Part shown: piece after piece, positions 13,419-24,175 of the stretch
Layout of the letters: each line of letters starts with the position of its first letter
Numbering within the stretch: position 1 is the stretch's first letter
Assembly: GCF_020520425.1 (NCBI RefSeq)
Contig: NC_079492.1
Span: forward strand, 139,628,361 to 139,692,360
Source of the DNA: Spinacia oleracea
Taxonomy: Eukaryota; Streptophyta; Magnoliopsida; Caryophyllales; Amaranthaceae
Reading direction: 5' to 3'
Length of the DNA stretch: 64,000 nucleotides
The notes under the pieces: generated by a model
The model's input: the letters and a program-made list of their open reading frames with translations, nothing else
What the model was told of the DNA's origin: nothing
The model's database searches: none
Program-made: the position numbers and the translations under genes

Positions 13419-13428
13419 GGGGAAAGAC

Positions 13429-13567
13429 GAGTAAACTGTACTGAAGGTCCCTAAACTTTGCAAAAAGGAGCAGTTAGGTCCCTCAAGTTTCAAAAGGAGC
13501 ATTTAGGTCCCTCAAAATGGATGAAAAACGCTGCTTTTTGTTTTCCGTCACTAACGGCCGTTAAAAT
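13429..13567 (+). repeat. Left terminal inverted repeat of the MULE
   Basis: This pairs with 20367-20510. Recognisable blocks are GGTCCCTAAACTTTGC, a repeated GGAGCA(G/T)TTAGGTCCCTCAA and CCGTCACTAACGGCCGTTAA. The repeated GGTCCCT modules inside each end give several near-identical sub-sites, which in other MULEs are where transposase binds. That role is inference here. Confidence 0.9.
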
Positions 13568-13916
13568 GAATATTATAATATAAAAAATTATTAAAATAAA
13601 AGGAGAATTAATATACACGTAGATTAATGATTGAAAACAGATGATTTTGATAAAAAGAAGCCTTTTCCAATTACTTAGCCTTTACAACTTACTTTTTCTA
13701 TGTGTACACGTGGAAACCCTTCCAACTTCCCTCGTTTTTTCTGGTTCCTTCCTAATAATGTTTTGGCGGTATTTTTTTACTGTTCCCAACCCTATTTTCC
13801 CTCTTTTCACTTCCTATTTATATGGTCCCCTCCCATTTTCACTCTCAGTTGTCTTTTTTCCATTTACTCAAACACTTAAGAGAATTTGAAGTTATTGCTC
13901 TGAGTTTTCTGCAAAA

Positions 13917-14844
13917 ATGGGTTCTTGCGTATCCAACAAAAGGACTGCTGATTCCAAATGGGAAGTTCCGTCCCCCAGGAAGAGAACAAGAATATCTAGA
14001 TGGGATGAAGGTACTTTCATTCAATTTGTCGGTTTTTTCAATAAATGTTTGCAGTTGAGCCATGATAAATTAGGGCTTTTTTGTTAAGTAACTTTTTCCC
14101 AAAATTGGTGCATGCATTATCTTGATTGTGGTGTTTTATATGTTAATTTAAACAATCGTGGGCTGATTTCGCATAATTTATCAATTGAAGTTGGAATTAG
14201 GGTTTCGTCCGTTTTTACTTTCCAATTTTTAATTCGAATTGATGCTTGCATGTTCTTGAAAATGGTGTTTAATATGTTAAATTATACAATTGTTGCCTAA
14301 TTTGGAATTAATTTAAACTAGATTTTGTAGTAATTAGGGTTTCACTTACTGTTTTTGATTCACTTAAATAAAAAACAGAGTTTGATTAATTCGAATTGAT
14401 GCTTGCATGTTCTTGAAAATGGTGTTTATTTAAACTATTGTTTCTTAATTTGGAAGTATTTTAATCTAGATTCCGTTTAATAATTAGGGTTTACTTACTG
14501 TTTTATTGACTTTGGCCGTTACTTTGACTTTAGGAGACCTTGCTTTAAGGGAGGCACACCCCCTTTGTCATCATCAAGACATCCTCATCACCCAGATCTT
14601 CACCAAGCTGGACTGGGAGGGGCAGGCTGTTGTGCAGATGGTATGCAAGCAGTGGCGTAGATGGGCCAAGTTGCGGTACCGCCTCCCATACCACTACCCT
14701 CAAGGATGCTACCGCGCGTGGCTGCGGGAGTGGGTGATCATTGGCATCATTGACAATGATGGCCGTGACTTCCACGCCTGGATGGACAAGGACATGACCG
14801 TCTACTTTGACGGCTTCCCCCTCCTTTTCAAGGAGGAGGAATAG
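13917..14844 (+). CDS. Small F-box-like protein carried by the MULE, copy 1
   Basis: I predict two exons, 13917-14010 and 14534-14844, joined across a GT-AG intron, giving 134 residues. Exon 1 encodes MGSCVSNKRTADSKWE and a basic stretch. A Gly at position 2 followed by Cys resembles an N-myristoylation/palmitoylation start. Exon 2 holds a segment with the layout of an F-box (HHQDILITQIFTKLDWEG, then VCKQWRRWAKLRYRL), followed by an acidic tail ending FKEEE. If it is an F-box, the protein would bind SKP1 and recruit substrates to an SCF ubiquitin ligase. No substrate-binding repeat follows, and the protein is far shorter than typical F-box proteins. Exon 2 is markedly GC-richer than the surrounding DNA, which suggests capture from a host gene. 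The copy at 15580 keeps the same structure and frame, so selection or very recent duplication is likely. F-box assignment is tentative. Confidence 0.6.
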
Positions 14845-15053
14845 CTGGTGGTGGAGGCCATGCAGGGGTGGGTGGTGGTGGCGTTGGTGGTGGCCCCTCT
14901 TTTGTCAAGCTTATGATGATCCAGCTTGTTTATAGCTTTTTTTTTTTAATTTTCGAGCACAATTACTACTGTCATTGCAATTAGGTTTTTGTGAATGTGA
15001 CAAGTGTTGGTTTTTGGTATTTGTCACTGCTATGACAGTAGTTTATATTTAAC

Positions 15054-15112
15054 CGTAGGCTTCTCCCTCAATAGTGGATTGAGGTTTGAAATGTAAGGGT
15101 TGAAGCCTACCC
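15054..15112 (+). other. Conserved hairpin 3' of the F-box-like gene, copy 1
   Basis: An outer stem GTAGGCTTC...GAAGCCTAC encloses an inner stem CCTCAAT-AGTGG-ATTGAGG. The same structure occurs in the second unit at about 16732-16790 with minor loop changes. Its place about 210 bp after the stop codon suits a 3' UTR or polyadenylation region, or a structural boundary of the captured segment. No function is established. Confidence 0.55.
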
Positions 15113-15261
15113 TTTTGTAAATGCAACGGAAATGATCATGATGAATGAATGAATGCAACTTTTTTCTTTTGTTATCTCTTGTGTTGTTATTCAAGATTTG
15201 GTTTGGTTTGATTTCTTAAAGTTTTGTTTTTTTAATTGATATTGTTTAACTTTGATCAGAT

Positions 15262-15530
15262 GTTGATGATTTGACTTTGAACCCTTGCATATATGTGCAT
15301 CATGGTGGTGAATGGGTTGTGCAAGGTGATATGGTTTATAGTGGGGGGAGGGTGGATGTCTTTGATTACATCCATGAGAATGCAGATGGCAACTATGTTA
15401 AGGAATTAGTGGATAGTTTAGGTTATAATGATATAGAGAAAGTACATTTCTGGGACCCTAGGAAAGAATTCAAGAATGGGGTTAGGTTTTTAGGTTTTGA
15501 TAGTAGTAGTAGGGAAGGATGGAAACAATC
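15262..15530 (+). pseudogene. Truncated MULE transposase start (PB1-like) fused to a DDE scrap
   Basis: After a probable splice acceptor (TTTGATCAG, ending near 15260) the frame reads DVDDLTLNPCIYVHHGGEW...VDVFDYIHENADG...KVHFWDPRKEFKNGVRFLGFDSS. This is the PB1-like domain found at the N-terminus of many plant MULE transposases. It then changes abruptly into a frame-shifted copy of the transposase DDE sequence VGRDGNNQ (here SREGWKQSN). This is the remnant of a second transposase copy whose middle has been deleted. The PB1-like segment here keeps the frame through VRFLGFDSS, where the downstream copy loses a 7-bp repeat and stops. Confidence 0.75.
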
Positions 15531-15579
15531 AAACACTTAAGAGAATTAGAAGTTATTACTCTGAGTTTTCTGCAAAAAA

Positions 15580-16513
15580 ATGGGTTCTTGCGTATCAAAC
15601 AAAAGGTCTGCTGATTCCAAGTGGGAAGGTCTCACCAGGAAGAGAACAAGAACAAGAATATCCAGATGGGACGAAGGTATTTTCATTCAATTTGTCGGTT
15701 TTTTCAATAAATGTTTGCAGTTGAGCCATGATAAATTAGGGCTTTTTTGTTAAGTAACTTTTTCCCAAAATTGGTGCATGCATTATCTTGATTGTGGTGT
15801 TTTATATGTTAATTTAAACAATCGTGGGCTGATTTCGCATAATTTATCAATTGAAGTTGGAATTAGGGTTTCGTCCGTTTTTACTTTCCAATATTTAATT
15901 CGAATTGATGCTTGCATGTTCTTGAAAATGGTGTTTAATATGTTAAATTATACAATTGTTGCCTAACTTGGAATTAATTTAAACTAGATTTTGTAGTAAT
16001 TAGGGTTTCACTTACTGTTTTTGATTCACTTAAATAAAAAACAGAGTTTGATTAATTCGAATTGATGCTTGCATTTTCTTGAAAATGGTGTTTCTTTAAA
16101 CTATTGTTTCTTAATTTAGAAGTATTTTAATCTAGATTCCGTATAATAATTAGGGTTTACTTACTGTTTTATTGACTTTGGCCGTTACTTTGACTTTAGG
16201 AGCCCATGCTTTAAGGGAGGCACACCCCCTTTGCCATCATCAGGACATTCTAATCACCCAGATCTTCCCCAGGCTGGACTGGGAGGGGCAGTCTGCTGTG
16301 CAGAGTGTGTGCAAGCAGTGGCGTCGGTGGGCCAAGCTGCGGTACCGCCTCCCATACCACTACCCTCAAGGATGCTACCGTGCATGGCTGCGTGAGTGGG
16401 TCATCATGGACATCATTGACAATGATGGTCGTGACTTCCACGCCTGGTTGGACAAGGACATGACCGTCTACTTTGACGGCTTCCCCCTCCTTTTCAAGGA
16501 AGAGGAGGAGTAG
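15580..16513 (+). CDS. Small F-box-like protein carried by the MULE, copy 2
   Basis: Two exons are predicted, 15580-15676 and 16200-16513, giving 136 residues. The protein differs from copy 1 in exon 1 (GLTRKRTRTRISRW in place of VPSPRKRTRISRW) and at scattered exon 2 positions (FPRLDWEGQSAVQSVCKQW), but splice sites, start and stop are conserved and no frame is broken. An in-frame three-base insertion in exon 1 and one extra Glu at the end account for the length difference. The intron is nearly identical to that of copy 1. Two intact tandem copies inside one transposon argue that the gene is not simply debris. Its role could be to alter stability of transposase or of a silencing factor, but that is speculation. 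Confidence 0.6.
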
Positions 16514-16940
16514 CTGGTGGTGGAGGCCATGCAGGGTGGGTGGTGGTGGCGCTGGTGGTGGCCCCTCTTTTGTCAAGCTTTTGTTGATCCAGCTTGTTTA
16601 TAGCTTTTTTTATTTTTAATTTTCAAGGACAATTACATTACTACTGTCATTGCAATGTTGGTTTTTGTGGAAGGTGACAAATGTTGGTTTTTGGTATTTG
16701 TCACTGCTATGACAGTAGTTTATACTTAACCGTAGGCTTCTCCCTCAATAGTGGATTGAGGTTGTAATGTAAGGGTTGAAGCCTACCCTTTTGTAAATTC
16801 AAATGGAATGATCATGATGAATGAATGAAGATAACTGTTTCCTTTTGTTATCTCTTGTGTTGTTATTCAAGCTTTCATTTGGTTTGATTTCTTAAAGTTT
16901 TGTTCTTTTAATTGATATTGTTTTAACTTTGATCAGATGA

Positions 16941-19485
16941 TGTTGATGGTTTGACTTTGAACCCTTGCATATATGTGCATCATGGTGGTGAATGGGTTGT
17001 GCAAGGTGATATGGTTTATAGTGGGGGGAGGGTGGATGTCTTTGATTACATCCATGAGAATGCAGATGGGAAATATGTTAAGGAATTAGTGGATAGTTTA
17101 GGTTATAATGATATAGAGAAAGTACATTTTTGGGACCCTAGGAAAGAATTCAAGAATGGGGTTAGGTTTTGATAGTAGTACTTGTGACCCTTTCTTAGCT
17201 TTACTCTTTGAATACAAAAGCATTCATATATACATTGAACATAAAATCAAACCCACCTACAACTTTAACCTAAACAGGAGTGCAGGAGGGGGAGGAGGGA
17301 GAGGTAGCTTCCTTGAGTTGTTGAATACTGATGTGGTTGACTTAAATTCTGATTATGTGGAACCACCTTTTACAGTACTCCCACCCAAACAAACTGAAAC
17401 TCAACCTGAAACATTCCATTTTCTAAAAATGATTCCACTAGGGTTTGTGCAGAGTGTGAGCACAAAGATAAAGGTTGTAAATGGAGAATTTGGGCTTCAT
17501 GGGAGAGAGGAAGAAGGTCATTTACAGTGAAAACATTTGTCAGTGAGCACACTTGTAGTAGGACACCTATCATTAAGAAGATGACTTCACATTGGATTGC
17601 AGAACACTACCAGAATCTGTTTAAGGTTAACCCTTACATGAGAGTGCAAGATATTCAGGAAACCATTTGGTTAGAAAAGGGTATAAGGGTGAGCAAAGAC
17701 AAGGCTGCCAGGGCTAGGAGAAGGGGTCAAGCACTCATTGTTGGTGAATACAAAGAGCAGTATGCATTACTCCCAAGGTATGCAGCTGAGATACTAAGAA
17801 GCAATCCAGGGAACACAGTGAAGTTGAAGTTGGATGCAAATGTGTTTGACAGACTGTATTTGTGTTTTGAGGCACTTAGGAAAGGGTTCTTGGCAGGATG
17901 CAGACCTTTCATATCACTTGATGGATGTTTCTTAAAGGGACCATTTGGGGGTCAATTGTTAGTAGCAGTAGGGAGGGATGGAAACAATCAAATGTTCCCT
18001 TTGGCTTGGGCTGTTTGTGAGGTTGAGAGCACTGACACATGGAGTTGGTTTCTAGAACTTCTAGCTACTGATTTAGGCACTAGTGAAGGAGCAGGGTACA
18101 CTTTCATGTCTGACCAACAAAAGGGTTTACTTGCTGCTGTGTCAAATGTGTTTCCACAAGCTGAAAGTAGGGTGTGTGCAAGGCATGTGTACTGTAACTT
18201 TAGGGGAGTGTTTGGAGGTGGTTTAGAGTACAGAAAACAATTTTGGACTATTGCAAAAAGAAACACAGTAAATCACTTCAATGAAAACATTGAAGTAATG
18301 AGGGGTATTTCACATGAAGCTGCTGAAGACCTACTGAAAAGGAACTACAAGAAATGGTGTAGGGCATTCTACACTCCATTATCTTGTTGTGACAGTGTAG
18401 ACAACAACATGAGTGAGGTGTTTAATGCATACATCTTGAGTGCAAGGCACAAGCCTATTATTACCATGTTGGAAGATATCAGAGAGGGTTTGATGGAAAG
18501 ACTGCATAAGAAAAGAGATTTCATTGGGAAAAAGGAGATAATGTTGTGTCCTAGGATCCAAATTCAGTTAGAGAAACACAAAATTTGGGCTAGGGGTTGG
18601 AATGCATACTGGGATGGTGGGTTTTGCTATGGAGTAAGAGAAGGTGCAACACAGGTTAAGTATGTGGTGGATCTGAACCAACATACTTGCAGTTGCAATG
18701 CATGGCAGGTGAGTGGGATTCCATGCAAACATGCAATTGTTGCTATATGGAATAAAGTAGACCACCCAGAACAATATGTCAATGCATATTTCTGGAAACA
18801 GACCTACATGAAGGCATATGAATTTTTGTTAGAGCCTTTAAATGGTCCTCAAGAGTGGCCTACTTCTGATAGCATTGTTGTGGCTCCAAAGGTGAAAAAG
18901 GTCAATGGAAGACCTAAAACAAAGAGGAGATATGGTGTTGGAGAGGTAACTGCATCTGGTAAGCTGAAGAGAACAGGTTGTTCTATGAAATGCAGCTTAT
19001 GTGGTGTGATAGGCCACAACAAAAGGGGTTGCAAGAATGCCCCTAAGCAACAACAACACAGCAACAATCATGCTACTGCAGAGCAGACCACACCACAGCA
19101 ACAACACCCAAGAACCAGTTCAGCTATACCAATGCACAATAGGGGTGTGGGTATTTATACCTACCCAAATGGGTATCAAAGAATAGCTACTGTAAGTCAT
19201 TCAATATACTCAAATTCTTTCTTACATGTTACTTTACTGTACTGAAGCCAACTTGTTCCTAATTTGTTTTAATTAATGCAGCCTATATCACAACACTTCC
19301 CCACACCACAGAGGCAAAGACCTCCTGCAGCTTTCTATTCTGATCATGGGGGTGAGCAAACCATCTACTCCTTCCCTGCACATGACTTCCCATTGTCACA
19401 GACTCAACCAAGTCAAGGACACACAATATCAAGCCAAGCATTGCAGGATCTTGCAATGGCTAGAAGATTAGAAAAAAGACCATGA
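16941..19485 (+). CDS. MuDR-type MULE transposase (interrupted N-terminus)
   Basis: The PB1-like N-terminal domain is encoded at 16941-17172 (LTLNPCIYVHHGGEW...). The frame is broken by loss of one 7-bp repeat after NGVRF and again near 17415. From 17410 one frame runs open through DSTRVCAECEHKDKGCKWRI (the usual zinc-containing N-terminal motif), EHTCSR, and the catalytic core. The catalytic triad is visible as LDGCFLKG (D), MSDQQKG (D) and DNNMSEVF (E), at residues 132, 196 and 297 counted from 17527. A SWIM zinc finger (CSC, then CKH, residues 388-402) and a CCHC zinc knuckle (residues 489-502) follow. A last intron (19192-19281, GT-AG) joins a Gln/Pro-rich C-terminal exon ending at 19485. 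It cuts and inserts the element at its terminal repeats. The true first exon and start codon are not resolved. Confidence 0.88.
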
Positions 19486-19566
19486 GGTTAGATTTTATTG
19501 AATTTAAAGTCTTCATTACATTTCATTAGTGCAGATCATTACATTTTACCTACCCACTTAACCCAC

Positions 19567-19995
19567 TTAACTTAAAACAAACCAGATAAAAAAAAACAGA
19601 ACCACTAGGATTACAACCCACACTTCACATTTCACACTAATAGGTCTTCTCATCTTGCTCATCACATAGTCTGCCTCCCTCTTCCTTGCATAATTGTTAG
19701 CTTCACTAAGTTTTGTCCTAAAACTATCAACTTCAGCAGCAAGGCTTTGTTTATCTTGCATTAACCCTAGTATGACAATTGTTTGCCAAGTTGTTGGTTC
19801 TTGTTCATCAATCCATCTAAAAAAAATGCAACCCCTTCTGTTTGTTTCAACATCATAATCTGGACAAGCAATGAACCTCCTTCCAGGATTTTCTTTTGTC
19901 CATGCCTTTTGAATGGATACTGTGAATCCACAGTAGCACCTCTTAGGGTGTTCATTATCACCATTGTTGAACAAAGAGATAGCCCTGTTCATCAT
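19567..19995 (-). CDS. GRF zinc-finger protein with C-terminal membrane segment
   Basis: This convergent gene encodes 142 residues. Residues 20-61 form a GRF-type zinc finger: C20 and C22, then ENPGRRFIAC (C44), then RRGCIFFRW (C56). Residues 75-112 are predicted coiled-coil-like (SLAAEVDSFRTKLSEANNYA), and residues 123-141 are strongly hydrophobic, a single membrane span. GRF fingers bind nucleic acid in other proteins. Small GRF/coiled-coil/TM proteins are common in plant genomes (At4g04775-like) and some travel with transposons. A splice acceptor (TTTGCAG) lies directly before the ATG. A matching donor at 20095 suggests a non-coding first exon inside the right end of the MULE, so the terminal repeat region would supply the promoter. 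Its role in transposition is unknown. Confidence 0.8.
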   Translation of the reverse strand: MMNRAISLFNNGDNEHPKRCYCGFTVSIQKAWTKENPGRRFIACPDYDVETNRRGCIFFRWIDEQEPTTWQTIVILGLMQDKQSLAAEVDSFRTKLSEANNYARKREADYVMSKMRRPISVKCEVWVVILVVLFFFIWFVLS

Positions 19996-20240
19996 TCTGC
20001 AAATAAATTACGTTTTAATAATTTATTCCTAAATATGTTTAATTATTGTTAAAATAAGCTAACTTAAGATTTACAAAAAAATGGCAGGAAAATACCTTTT
20101 TATGTTGAGAAGAGTCAGCTATGGTGGAGCAACAGAGAAAAAACACAGAGCAGAAGATGGAGAAGAAAGAATTTTTTTTTAAGTGTTTTGTTGTTGTTTT
20201 TATTTGCCATGGAATGTTAAATACTCTGTTTTTTGAGAGC
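19996..20240 (-). promoter_or_regulatory. Non-coding first exon and intron of the GRF gene
   Basis: Read on the minus strand, an exon ending AACATAAAAAG is followed by a GT donor at 20095 and an AG acceptor at 19997, with the start codon at 19995. The upstream exon has no ATG in any useful frame, so it should be 5' UTR. The exon start is not determined. Confidence 0.5.
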
Positions 20241-20366
20241 CTCAACGGCTATATTTTTGTAAAAAGCTAACTGAAATGAATTTCCCTTTATTTAATTATT
20301 GGTAAATGGTAAATGTAACTGTTTTTTTGTCGTTTAGTGCCTTTTATTTAGTTTCCTTTTAATTTA

Positions 20367-20510
20367 AATGCATTTTAACGGACGTTAGTGACGGAAAACA
20401 AAAAGCAGCGGATTCCATCCAAACGCAGGGACCTAAATGCTCCTTTTGAAACTTGAGGGACCTAACTGCTCCTTTTGGCAAAGTTTAGGGACCTGCAGAT
20501 CTATTTACTC
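20367..20510 (-). repeat. Right terminal inverted repeat of the MULE
   Basis: The inverse of the left end, with the same GGGACCTAAATGC and GAGGGACCTAACTGC modules. The last 320 bp (from about 20190) are almost identical to the right end of the sister element at 23848-24165, apart from a short difference after AAGTGTTTTG. Confidence 0.9.
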
Positions 20511-20654
20511 GGGGAAAGACTATAAGGCGGATAAGATAATAAATTTTTATATCAAAAAATAGAATAAAGCAAAGTGGAAAGAACATTATGAAACGGACTA
20601 AAACTGAAAATGTAAATATCATTTTGAAACAGAGGTACTCCGTAGTATTTTGTA

Positions 20655-21748: not shown

Positions 21749-22414
21749 GCTTATGTTCGAGTAAATAGGTCTGGAGGTCCCTTAACTTTGTCAAAAGGAG
21801 CAGTTAAGTTCCTCAAGTTTCAAAAGGAGCATTTAGGTCCCTCAAAATGGATGGAATAAGCTATTTTTATTAACACCGTTACATTTTCCGTTAAGTTCAA
21901 TTAAATAATAATAAAACTGATTTTAAATAAAGGGAAATCAATTTACATGTGTATAAATGATTTAAAATAGCTTCTTTTGATTTTGACTTAGCTTTTTCAA
22001 GTTCCTTAGCCTTTTCATTTGCTTTTTCACCCTACACATTTCATCATAACAGAGCAATTTAATCCTATACATCTACAATAAAAATTAACAAAATATATTA
22101 AAAGAGATGCTAAAATATTTGATCTTGATTAATTCCGAGAAAGAAAAAACTGAGATCTAATCCCCCCAAACAAATAGATTGATCATTTGGTGGAAGATGG
22201 CAGTGTATTCCATTGAACAATGATATAGGGATTACAATATGATAGAGTCCTAATTCATTAATATGACTAGAAGTCTAATATACATCAAATATCCCAAGGC
22301 AAAATCCTATGAGATATCTAAGTAGTTAAAAATCAAGTGTCGATGTGATTACAAATAGTTCTTACACTTAACTTATTAAACACAAAATCACAACATATAT
22401 TAATAAAGGATAAT

Positions 22415-22684
22415 CTAGTTACATGACAATGGTTCTTCCCCACTGTACAAGGCTAGTAAATACCCGTTGCCAACCCAATCCTCAAAAGGGTAATACACTT
22501 GAAACATAACATAAGACCAACCGAGTAACGGATACCATTTATGCACAATTTGATCCGACTCACGTTTGTTCGGCCCGGGATACAGACATTCTGGGATACA
22601 GACCAACTGCCTCGCGTACCTTCTGTTCACATGCCATCCATTCGTTTCATGTACTGCTTGAAGCCTTGGTTTGATGGCCATCAT
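22415..22684 (-). pseudogene. Unidentified captured coding fragment in the Pack-MULE
   Basis: An 89-codon frame with balanced composition, rich in Trp, Tyr and Cys (ARQLVCIPECLYPGPNK, HKWYPLLGWSYVMFQVYYP, GNGYLLALYSGEEPLSCN). It does not resemble AT-driven chance frames, and I do not recognise the family. Its GC content is higher than the surrounding DNA. Being inside the terminal repeats of a MULE and on the same strand as the captured promoter at 23100-23270, it is best read as part of a host gene segment picked up by the element. Completeness is unknown. Confidence 0.4.
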
Positions 22685-22869
22685 CTAGAACTCTCGAGGT
22701 GAGGCCCCACGAGGTGGATCCCTTCACAACACGCCTTTGTCGAACCCAAGCTTCACTTCATCGAAAAATGATTTCCTCACCATTCGATGATCTGCTTTTC
22801 AGGATTCTCCAACATTCACAACCCCTTTGAGAATGACTCAACAAGGGGTCATGGAAGCATGACATTGGA

Positions 22870-23130
22870 AGGCTACTTAGACAGAGAAACTACGGTCGTG
22901 TTTTTTTTATGACTAATTTTTATTTTCTGATATGGGGGGTGATATTTGTATACAAAATCTTCTATGGTTAAGAAGATATTCATTGTGTTGTGATGAATTG
23001 AAAGGAAAAAAAACTGGGTTGTTGAGTAGAAGAAGAAATATATATGGAGTATTGAATACAAACCGAGATATAAGAGATGAATATTGTTGTAATGCTTTAA
23101 GCCAACCCCCTTGTGTTTATATAGTCAAGG
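22870..23130 (-). pseudogene. Captured promoter, 5' UTR and coding start
   Basis: On the minus strand there is a TATA box (CTATATAAACACAAGG near 23106-23122), then about 100 bp of leader. An ATG in plant context follows (CAACACAATGAATATC, ATG near 22985-22987 region), opening MNIFLTIEDFVYKYHPPYQK and ending after about 36 codons. The order and distances are those of a normal plant gene 5' end. The source gene is not recognised. Confidence 0.45.
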
Positions 23131-23374
23131 AAGACCAATGGAAGATAAGCTGTTTCTCACATCTCAATGCTCCTCATTAAATACTTAGGAGTAGTTAGTA
23201 GACCAAGGAAGACCAAATTAAATATAGTCTTGTTGTAATGCTTTAAGCCAACCCCCTTGTGTTTATATAGTCAAGGAAGACCAATGGAAGATAAGCTGTT
23301 TCTCACATCTCAATGCTCCTCATTAAATACTTAGGAGTAGTTAGTAGACCAAGGAAGACCAAATTAAATATAGT
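23084..23374. repeat. Two 146-bp tandem repeats over a TATA-bearing promoter
   Basis: Unit 1 (23084-23229) and unit 2 (23230-23374) are essentially identical, beginning TTGTTGTAATGCTTTAAGCC and ending ACCAAATTAAATATAGT. Each contains the minus-strand TATA box CTATATAAACACAAGG, so the captured promoter has been doubled. Near-perfect identity implies a very recent event. Confidence 0.9.
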
Positions 23375-24175
23375 GCGTCTGAAATGCAACTTGTATCTAA
23401 TACAAATGTTTAAATTTCCAGAACAGTGGATACATACTCCGTATATGTGCCTAGTTTGAACACATACTCCGTATTAAGGTTCATTACCTTACTCGGACGA
23501 AGCTCTTTTACGTCCTCTTATCTAACGAGTATGACCATTAATTGAATTTCGTTAAATAATACTCTGATGAGCGAGCTTAGCTTTGAGACGAGATAGAACA
23601 CAAAATGAGGCTCATTAAACAAATCAGTTTGGACATGATCTGAACACAAACATGCTCGTTCATGTTACAAGCTCGTGAACAAGCTCGTTTATGTTCATTT
23701 ATTTAATTAATTAGACGGGCTTGAACACACATCTAAACTTGATAAATAAATTAGATTCAGGAGCATGAAATATTGGACATATCGGTAAGTGCAACGTCTA
23801 ATTGTAAATTGTAACAAAATTCATAATTCACGTTCTACAAAATTTTTAAGTGTTTTGTTTGCCATGGAATGTTAAATACTCTGTTTTTTGAGAGCCTCAA
23901 CGGCTATATTTTTGTAAAAAGCTAACTGAAATGAATTTCCCTTTATTTAATTATTGGTAAATGGTAAATGTAACTGTTTTTTTGTCGTTTAGTGCCTTTT
24001 ATTTAGTTTCCTTTTAATTTAATTGAATTTTAACGGCCGTTAGTAACAGAAGTCAAAAAGCAGCGGTTTCCATCCATTTTGAGGGACCTAAATGCTCCTT
24101 TTGAAACTTGAGGGACCTAACTGCTCCTTTTGGCAAAGTTTAGGGACCTGCAGATCTATTTACTCGCTTATGTTC

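Follow-up and report, generated by a model that had tools for sequence, protein, structure and literature searches.

The question raised by the locus studied here is whether a small gene carried by a transposon is incidental debris or a regular component of the element. The locus lies at positions 13429-20510 of a stretch of 64,000 nucleotides from Spinacia oleracea (contig NC_079492.1, 139,628,361 to 139,692,360 of the forward strand), hereafter called the window. It is a Mutator-like element (MULE) of 7082 bp between target-site duplications, which holds a transposase gene, a GRF zinc-finger gene and, present twice, a two-exon gene whose second exon is F-box-like. A preliminary description had proposed that the small gene would be captured debris if it occurred in this one insertion only or if profile searches gave no F-box similarity; neither condition refuted it. 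Our genome-wide search identified the small gene as a regular part of a MULE family and not as debris.

The search covered 894 Mb in 242 contigs of this one species. Exon 2 of the small gene gave 116 matches, all 125 candidates having been scored. Ninety of these, the two in the window among them, were near full length, beginning no later than residue 4 and reaching at least residue 98; 73 of the 90 were free of stops and 17 contained stops. Since 76 of 1957 transposase candidates and 101 of 150 GRF matches entered the comparison of neighborhoods, the following counts are lower bounds, and the 30-kb limit is a loose one that allows for nested insertions. A scored transposase followed on the same strand in at least 54 of the 90 copies within 6 kb and in at least 66 within 30 kb. 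The corresponding numbers were at least 63 and 79 for a downstream GRF match on either strand, and at least 51 and 66 for both genes together. None of the 90 had a scored transposase on the opposite strand within 6 kb downstream. Conversely, exon 2 was found upstream of 53 of the 76 scored transposases within 6 kb and of 65 within 30 kb, and for 11 there was none. Eleven diverged loci were fetched (L039-L044 and L046-L050). The order small gene, transposase, GRF gene was present in four of them (L039, L040, L044, L050), four others (L042, L043, L047, L048) combined the small gene with either the transposase or the GRF gene, and three (L041, L046, L049) had the small gene alone. This distribution indicates a MULE family in which a conserved F-box-like gene, an unusual accessory, occupies a fixed place. 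A first exon common to this gene and the transposase is likely. The usual layout is a terminal inverted repeat (TIR), the small gene with exon 1 and F-box-like exon 2, the transposase, the antisense GRF gene, and the second TIR.

The window element shows the inverted ends, the duplication of about 8-11 bp and the MULE/MuDR transposase domains by which MULEs are recognized. The perfect 10-bp duplication and inverted ends noticed at the outset were recovered: the duplicates match in 10 of 10 bases, and the inverted arms (13428-13571 and 20368-20511, 144 nt, with ends of about 143 bp) are 89% complementary. The two open copies of the small gene, of 134 and 136 residues, likewise held, with GT/AG intron borders at both. 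The features are:

13419-13428, unstranded: left target-site duplication GGGGAAAGAC, same as 20511-20520
13429-13571, plus strand: left TIR, containing 29-bp sub-repeats, 89% complementary to the right arm
13429-15508, plus strand: A-type segment with TIR, 5' region, first small gene and first copy of the transposase N-terminal exon, 94% identical to 101-2209 of the reference member L053
13917-14010, plus strand: small gene copy 1, exon 1, 31 codons and one base, donor AAG/GTACTT
14534-14844, plus strand: small gene copy 1, exon 2, F-box-like, ending in TAG
15260-15540, plus strand: transposase N-terminal exon, first copy, truncated at the junction, with a stop at its end
15509-15525, plus strand: filler of 17 bp at the A/B junction
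15526-20510, plus strand: B-type segment with second small gene, transposase, GRF gene and right TIR, 99.0% and 99.5% identical to L053
15580-15676, plus strand: small gene copy 2, exon 1, 32 codons and one base
16200-16513, plus strand: small gene copy 2, exon 2, F-box-like
16937-19191, plus strand: transposase main exon with two deletions, MULE and SWIM domains retained
19282-19485, plus strand: likely last transposase exon, by inspection (donor ACT/GTAAGT after 19191, acceptor GCAG/CC)
19567-19995, minus strand: GRF zinc-finger gene, convergent with the transposase; its product has a hydrophobic C-terminus
20368-20510, minus strand: right TIR, 89% complementary to the left arm
20511-20520, unstranded: right target-site duplication GGGGAAAGAC

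The full-length reference member L053 has 5877 bp (about 5.9 kb), a target-site duplication matching in 9 of 10 bases, a single small gene, a GRF gene, and an open transposase frame of 919 codons with MULE (E 1.8e-16), DBD_Tnp_Mut (E 3.1e-16) and SWIM (E 3.7e-10) domains; this transposase looks intact as predicted from its sequence. No target-site duplication was found in 10 further loci tried, whose ends were decayed or cut. Compared with L053, the window element consists of an A-type part (13429-15508, 94%), the 17-bp filler, and a B-type part (15526-20510, 99.0-99.5%). Other A-type copies are 96-99% identical to the window over 15000-15508. The second small gene begins at 15526, only 54 bases before its ATG, and has neither a TIR nor the upstream region. 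No other match to window 15000-16000 spanned the junction at 15509-15526 among the 40 of 226 candidates scored. The duplication, taken in the preliminary description for a feature of the element, is a chimera of two sub-types, A and B, joined in this one broken copy, and tandem duplication as a family trait was rejected on the absence of the junction from the other scored copies. The junction sequence 15497-15533 is 92% identical to transposase positions 17956-17992, which suggests template switching during repair.

The transposase in the window is not intact. A MULE domain (E 7.7e-17) was confirmed in it, as was a SWIM finger (E 1.9e-10). The frame is broken because 8 nt near 17165 and about 439 nt near 17410 are missing relative to L053, and the open frame has 611 codons vs. 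up to 921 in relatives. The window copy lacks the uninterrupted transposase frame of an autonomous MULE, and from its sequence we regard it as a rearranged copy with a defective transposase, belonging to a multi-copy family.

A second element of about 2.4 kb lies 1.2 kb from the first, at 21759-24165. It has ends of the same type and is flanked by the 10-bp duplication GCTTATGTTC, which is perfect. The 314 bp at its right are 95.5% identical to the right end of the first element and 76% to its left end, and its interior gave no blastn match to the transposase, F-box or GRF parts; by sequence it is a non-autonomous member. Inside it, a 146-bp unit occurs as two perfect tandem copies (23084-23374).

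The small gene is probably F-box-like. Seven of ten members matched the Pfam model F-box-like and five of ten the model F-box at E values up to 10, which are weak matches. One diverged member, L042, exceeded the curated cut-off of F-box (PF00646; 21.0 bits vs. 20.5, E 3e-4), and a typical A-type exon 2 reached E 0.019 against F-box-like, below the cut-off. The spacing of leucines and a VCKQWRRW run are also typical of F-boxes. The F-box similarity claimed in the preliminary description is genuine though weak, the window copies themselves staying below the cut-off. Pfam scans detected no known substrate domain after the F-box-like part, and a sequence search of solved structures returned one chance-level match (E 0.77).

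Several comparisons moderately support selection on the small gene. The ratio of non-synonymous to synonymous substitution rates (dN/dS) of exon 2 between the two window copies, a comparison proposed in the preliminary description, was 0.17 (15 synonymous and 11 non-synonymous changes), a value to be read with mutation bias in mind. It was 0.18 between L053 and the A-type member L021, and 0.12-0.30 between L053 and ten other loci. In five diverged loci with both genes counted, exon 2 (0.18-0.30) was lower than the transposase (0.32-0.55) each time. The transposase of closer copies gave 0.53-2.4 from few changes, and the GRF gene 0.71-1.2, none significant, with the exception of L050 (0.48, p 0.018). 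The shortage of non-synonymous changes was significant under a uniform mutation model (p 0.0002 for A against B, p 0.00003 for the window copies) and under a transition-only model (p 0.02 and 0.009). In the pooled A set it was found under all five models at p 0.0008 or less, including p 0.0005 under a pure C-to-T/G-to-A model; the 34 rows of this set share ancestry and are not independent.

Divergence between the sub-types is patchy. A and B are 84-85% identical in exon 1, 92-94% in exon 2 and 93-94% in the stretch from exon 2 to the transposase, vs. 98-99% in intron 1 and 98-99% in the transposase N-terminal exon. For the pair L021 and L053 the values are 85% in exon 1, 94% in exon 2 and in the stretch after it, and 99% in the intron, and dS of the transposase between the two is 0.004 (359 codons compared). 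C-to-T decay alone as the cause of the excess divergence of the small gene over its intron was ruled out by the 12 transversions among the 22 A-B changes. Gene conversion from a diverged lineage may be behind this pattern.

Exon 1 of the small gene probably serves the transposase as well, by alternative splicing. It encodes a basic sequence and is in frame to the donor in 31 of 36 A/B rows. It ends with one base before the donor (G/gt), and this phase suits either acceptor, that of the F-box exon as well as that of the transposase exon. The transposase acceptor CAG/AT is kept in 37 of 41 rows, and the phase from it to the following TTG codon, judged by eye, in all 41. In L053 an in-frame TGA precedes the open transposase frame, in which no ATG occurs ahead of the conserved start. 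Among the upstream ATG-led stretches of L053 with a G/GTA or G/GTG donor in phase, exon 1 stands out as the only one longer than 6 codons. The fit of phase to both acceptors together with this lack of an ATG suggests that exon 1 probably serves both proteins. Transposase N-termini matched no Pfam domain in the window copy, in L053 and in the same part of the relative L051. Identity of this relative is 56% over residues 198-901 and 32% in the part preceding them. Its 9.9 kb contain no F-box exon and no GRF gene, and an ATG lies just past a similar acceptor. Its own ATG weakly suggests that the family studied here lost its own transposase start when exon 1 was gained.

An MGSC start, which we take to be a lipid-anchor-like motif, was present in 34 of 36 A/B exon-1 rows. 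The start was readable in five of the 11 diverged loci (MVASSSS, MDASSSS, MDASSSSS, MAGASSS and MATSS), none of which has the motif. It was rejected as a conserved lipid-anchor signal and looks recent, being missing from these loci.

The small protein is best explained as a short F-box adaptor whose N-terminus is basic and changes fast, and which continues with a pair of F-box-like helices and a conserved tail of about 55 residues. The helix pair would bind host SKP1 and the tail a target, which would be passed to SCF ubiquitination to the benefit of the element; candidates are a silencing factor or the transposase itself. Skipping of the F-box exon would yield a transposase with the same first 32 or so residues, and its use a short F-box protein with which the message ends. 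Occurrence across the family, a conserved frame and splice phase and the profile match of a diverged member are observations, whereas splicing, SKP1 binding, ubiquitination and a target are all inferred from sequence. Taken as a whole, a multi-copy MULE family with an F-box adaptor as accessory and exon 1 common to the transposase is our preferred reading, to which we give slightly less than an even chance. The more specific proposal, that one first exon is spliced either to the F-box exon or to the transposase and that a silencing factor of the host, or transposase in excess, is removed by the F-box product, appears quite improbable. The small gene might help the element to control itself or to evade the host. 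As a conserved F-box-like gene in a high-copy MULE family it would be a concrete candidate for a transposon using host protein degradation. If exon 1 is indeed shared, splicing would determine how much regulator is made relative to transposase.

A number of observations weigh against the preferred reading. The whole basis is the genome sequence of one species. The full-length 134-residue protein of copy 1 gave no F-box hit, its exon 2 alone reached E 0.07 against F-box-like, below the Pfam cut-off, and copy 2 E 0.077; L039 and L040 had no F-box hit at E values up to 1. Two AlphaFold models, both with low confidence (pLDDT 69 and 48), show helices in the F-box region, and a Foldseek search with the first of them found no F-box match. 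Exon-2 dN/dS against decayed diverged copies rose to 0.47 with L053 and to 0.64 with L021. No significant purifying signal came from the 24 codons that precede the first ATG in the transposase exon, a stretch with few sites. L048 and L050 have 1-nt indels directly 3' of the transposase acceptor, as judged by eye. A G+C content of 57% in exon 2 and 73% at third positions argues against strong selection. Under the pure C-to-T/G-to-A model the non-synonymous shortage was not significant for A against B (p 0.21) or for the window copies (p 0.16), the values lying at 0.16-0.22 overall; yet this model cannot generate transversions, which made up more than half of the changes whenever A or B was compared with one of the five diverged loci tallied, ten comparisons in all.

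The weak profile matches would be explained if the small gene were a real and selected MULE accessory that is not a working F-box, acting as a transposition cofactor or as a DNA- or protein-binding helper in a role like that of mudrB. The window copies under the cut-off, the two diverged members without a match, the empty Foldseek result, the lack of a known substrate domain and the basic exon 1 all agree with such a helper, but L042 passes the curated F-box cut-off and most of the members compared match F-box-like, so we consider it rather unlikely. Passive carriage of captured host gene debris in the manner of a Pack-MULE is very improbable. Capture of gene fragments is common in MULEs according to the accessible part of PMC6446971, and F-box genes, according to that of PMC2869330, are among the most commonly transposed genes in Arabidopsis, which makes capture plausible as the origin of the small gene. 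Against debris stand its position at the same place in most members, the open frames in 73 of 90 copies and the low dN/dS in the closest pairs. Moreover, a Pack-MULE has host gene fragments and no transposase, whereas a transposase is present in the window (broken) and in L053. No host parent of the F-box exon was recognized in a six-frame search of the own genome at E values up to 10 with introns ignored; all but one of its 116 hits lay at known exon-2 places, the exception being 23 residues long (E 0.048).

The sharing of exon 1 has its own competitor, in which the small gene is independent, having a promoter and an end of its own, while the start of the transposase lies in a separate short first exon or at an internal ATG. 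In a donor scan of L053, the only member scanned and for G/GTA and G/GTG forms only, the upstream ATG-led stretches with a donor in phase were exon 1 (32 codons) and four others of 2-6 codons, any of which could be such a first exon, and L051 has its ATG immediately after a similar acceptor. Set against this is the fit of exon 1 to both acceptors, kept across the sub-types and the diverged members; two independent genes are quite possible, but we doubt it. A further account accepts the shared exon, which fits both genes, and takes the F-box exon as a self-limiting switch, in which a short protein with the N-terminus of the transposase removes or competes with the transposase and copy number stays moderate. 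P-element repressor and En/Spm products are precedents for two proteins from one transposon transcript. Such a switch seems unlikely, if less so than the specific proposal above.

The GRF gene is a wider companion of MULEs and not special to the F-box-like gene set, as judged from its occurrence elsewhere in the genome. In the window the GRF zinc finger was confirmed (29.4 bits vs. a Pfam cut-off of 25.9, E 8.9e-7), and the coiled coil and membrane segment described along with it correspond, by eye, to a coiled-coil-like middle and a hydrophobic C-terminal stretch. Two distant GRF loci were fetched. At L054 the GRF match (32.6 bits) is above the cut-off and the gene is convergent with a transposase remnant of 33-41% identity; at L055 it is just under the cut-off (23.5 bits) and lies near a MULE-domain frame of a different kind (E 1e-14). 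The F-box exon was absent at both. Near these two genes of L055, an ATHILA ORF-1-like frame (5085 to about 4340, minus strand, E 1.1e-7) is probably a nested retroelement. Between L053 (5021-5476) and the window (19567-19995) the GRF reading frame shifts after a T-rich tract close to the C-terminus, resulting in two different hydrophobic tails. At L052 (C4:117769500-117779400), three tandem units of about 2.4 kb each consist of the 3' part of the element with a GRF frame; these frames have no inner stops and match at 76-78% identity.

Few transposons are, to our knowledge, known to carry genes acting on the host, and VANC is the main plant case. Among the papers listed by word searches of the open literature, none described, by title and opening of the abstract, a MULE with an F-box or GRF gene. 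The additional MULE genes named in the available sections of PMC6446971 and PMC13317346 are mudrB, mutB, vanB/vanC and ULP1, and the words F-box and GRF are absent from both reviews. In the portion of PMC13359793 at hand, mentions of F-box concern the self-incompatibility genes of Prunus, and a survey of spinach repeats reports 167 elements of the MULE-MuDR type, the corresponding excerpt giving no gene content (PMC6337768).

MuDR, with mudrA and mudrB, is similar in its long inverted ends, its target duplication of about 9-10 bp and its MuDR DNA-binding, MULE and SWIM domains. It also has a second gene, mudrB, beside the transposase (PMC6446971, in part). Unlike MuDR, the family in the window has the extra F-box-like gene on the strand of the transposase. 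VANDAL elements and Hiun with vanB and vanC likewise combine a MULE with accessory genes, of which VANC has an anti-silencing function (excerpts of PMC6446971 and PMC13317346). VANDALs, for which a VANC gene is characteristic, are MULEs without TIRs (PMC13317346, in part), whereas the window element has TIRs; no Pfam match named VANC was found among the five window proteins scanned, the presence of such a model in Pfam being unchecked. Kaonashi and other MULEs with ULP1 also contain a host-type domain of a ubiquitin-like pathway, in their case ULP1 and in the present family an F-box-like segment (PMC13317346, available section). The polerovirus protein P0 provides an analogy of role only: it is a short protein of a selfish genome with an F-box-like motif that binds SKP1, an interaction which, according to the accessible text of PMC6593998, makes P0 more stable, while suppression does not directly depend on it. 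If the F-box product of the MULE removes a silencing factor, the family would be a transposon parallel of the viral F-box silencing suppressors.

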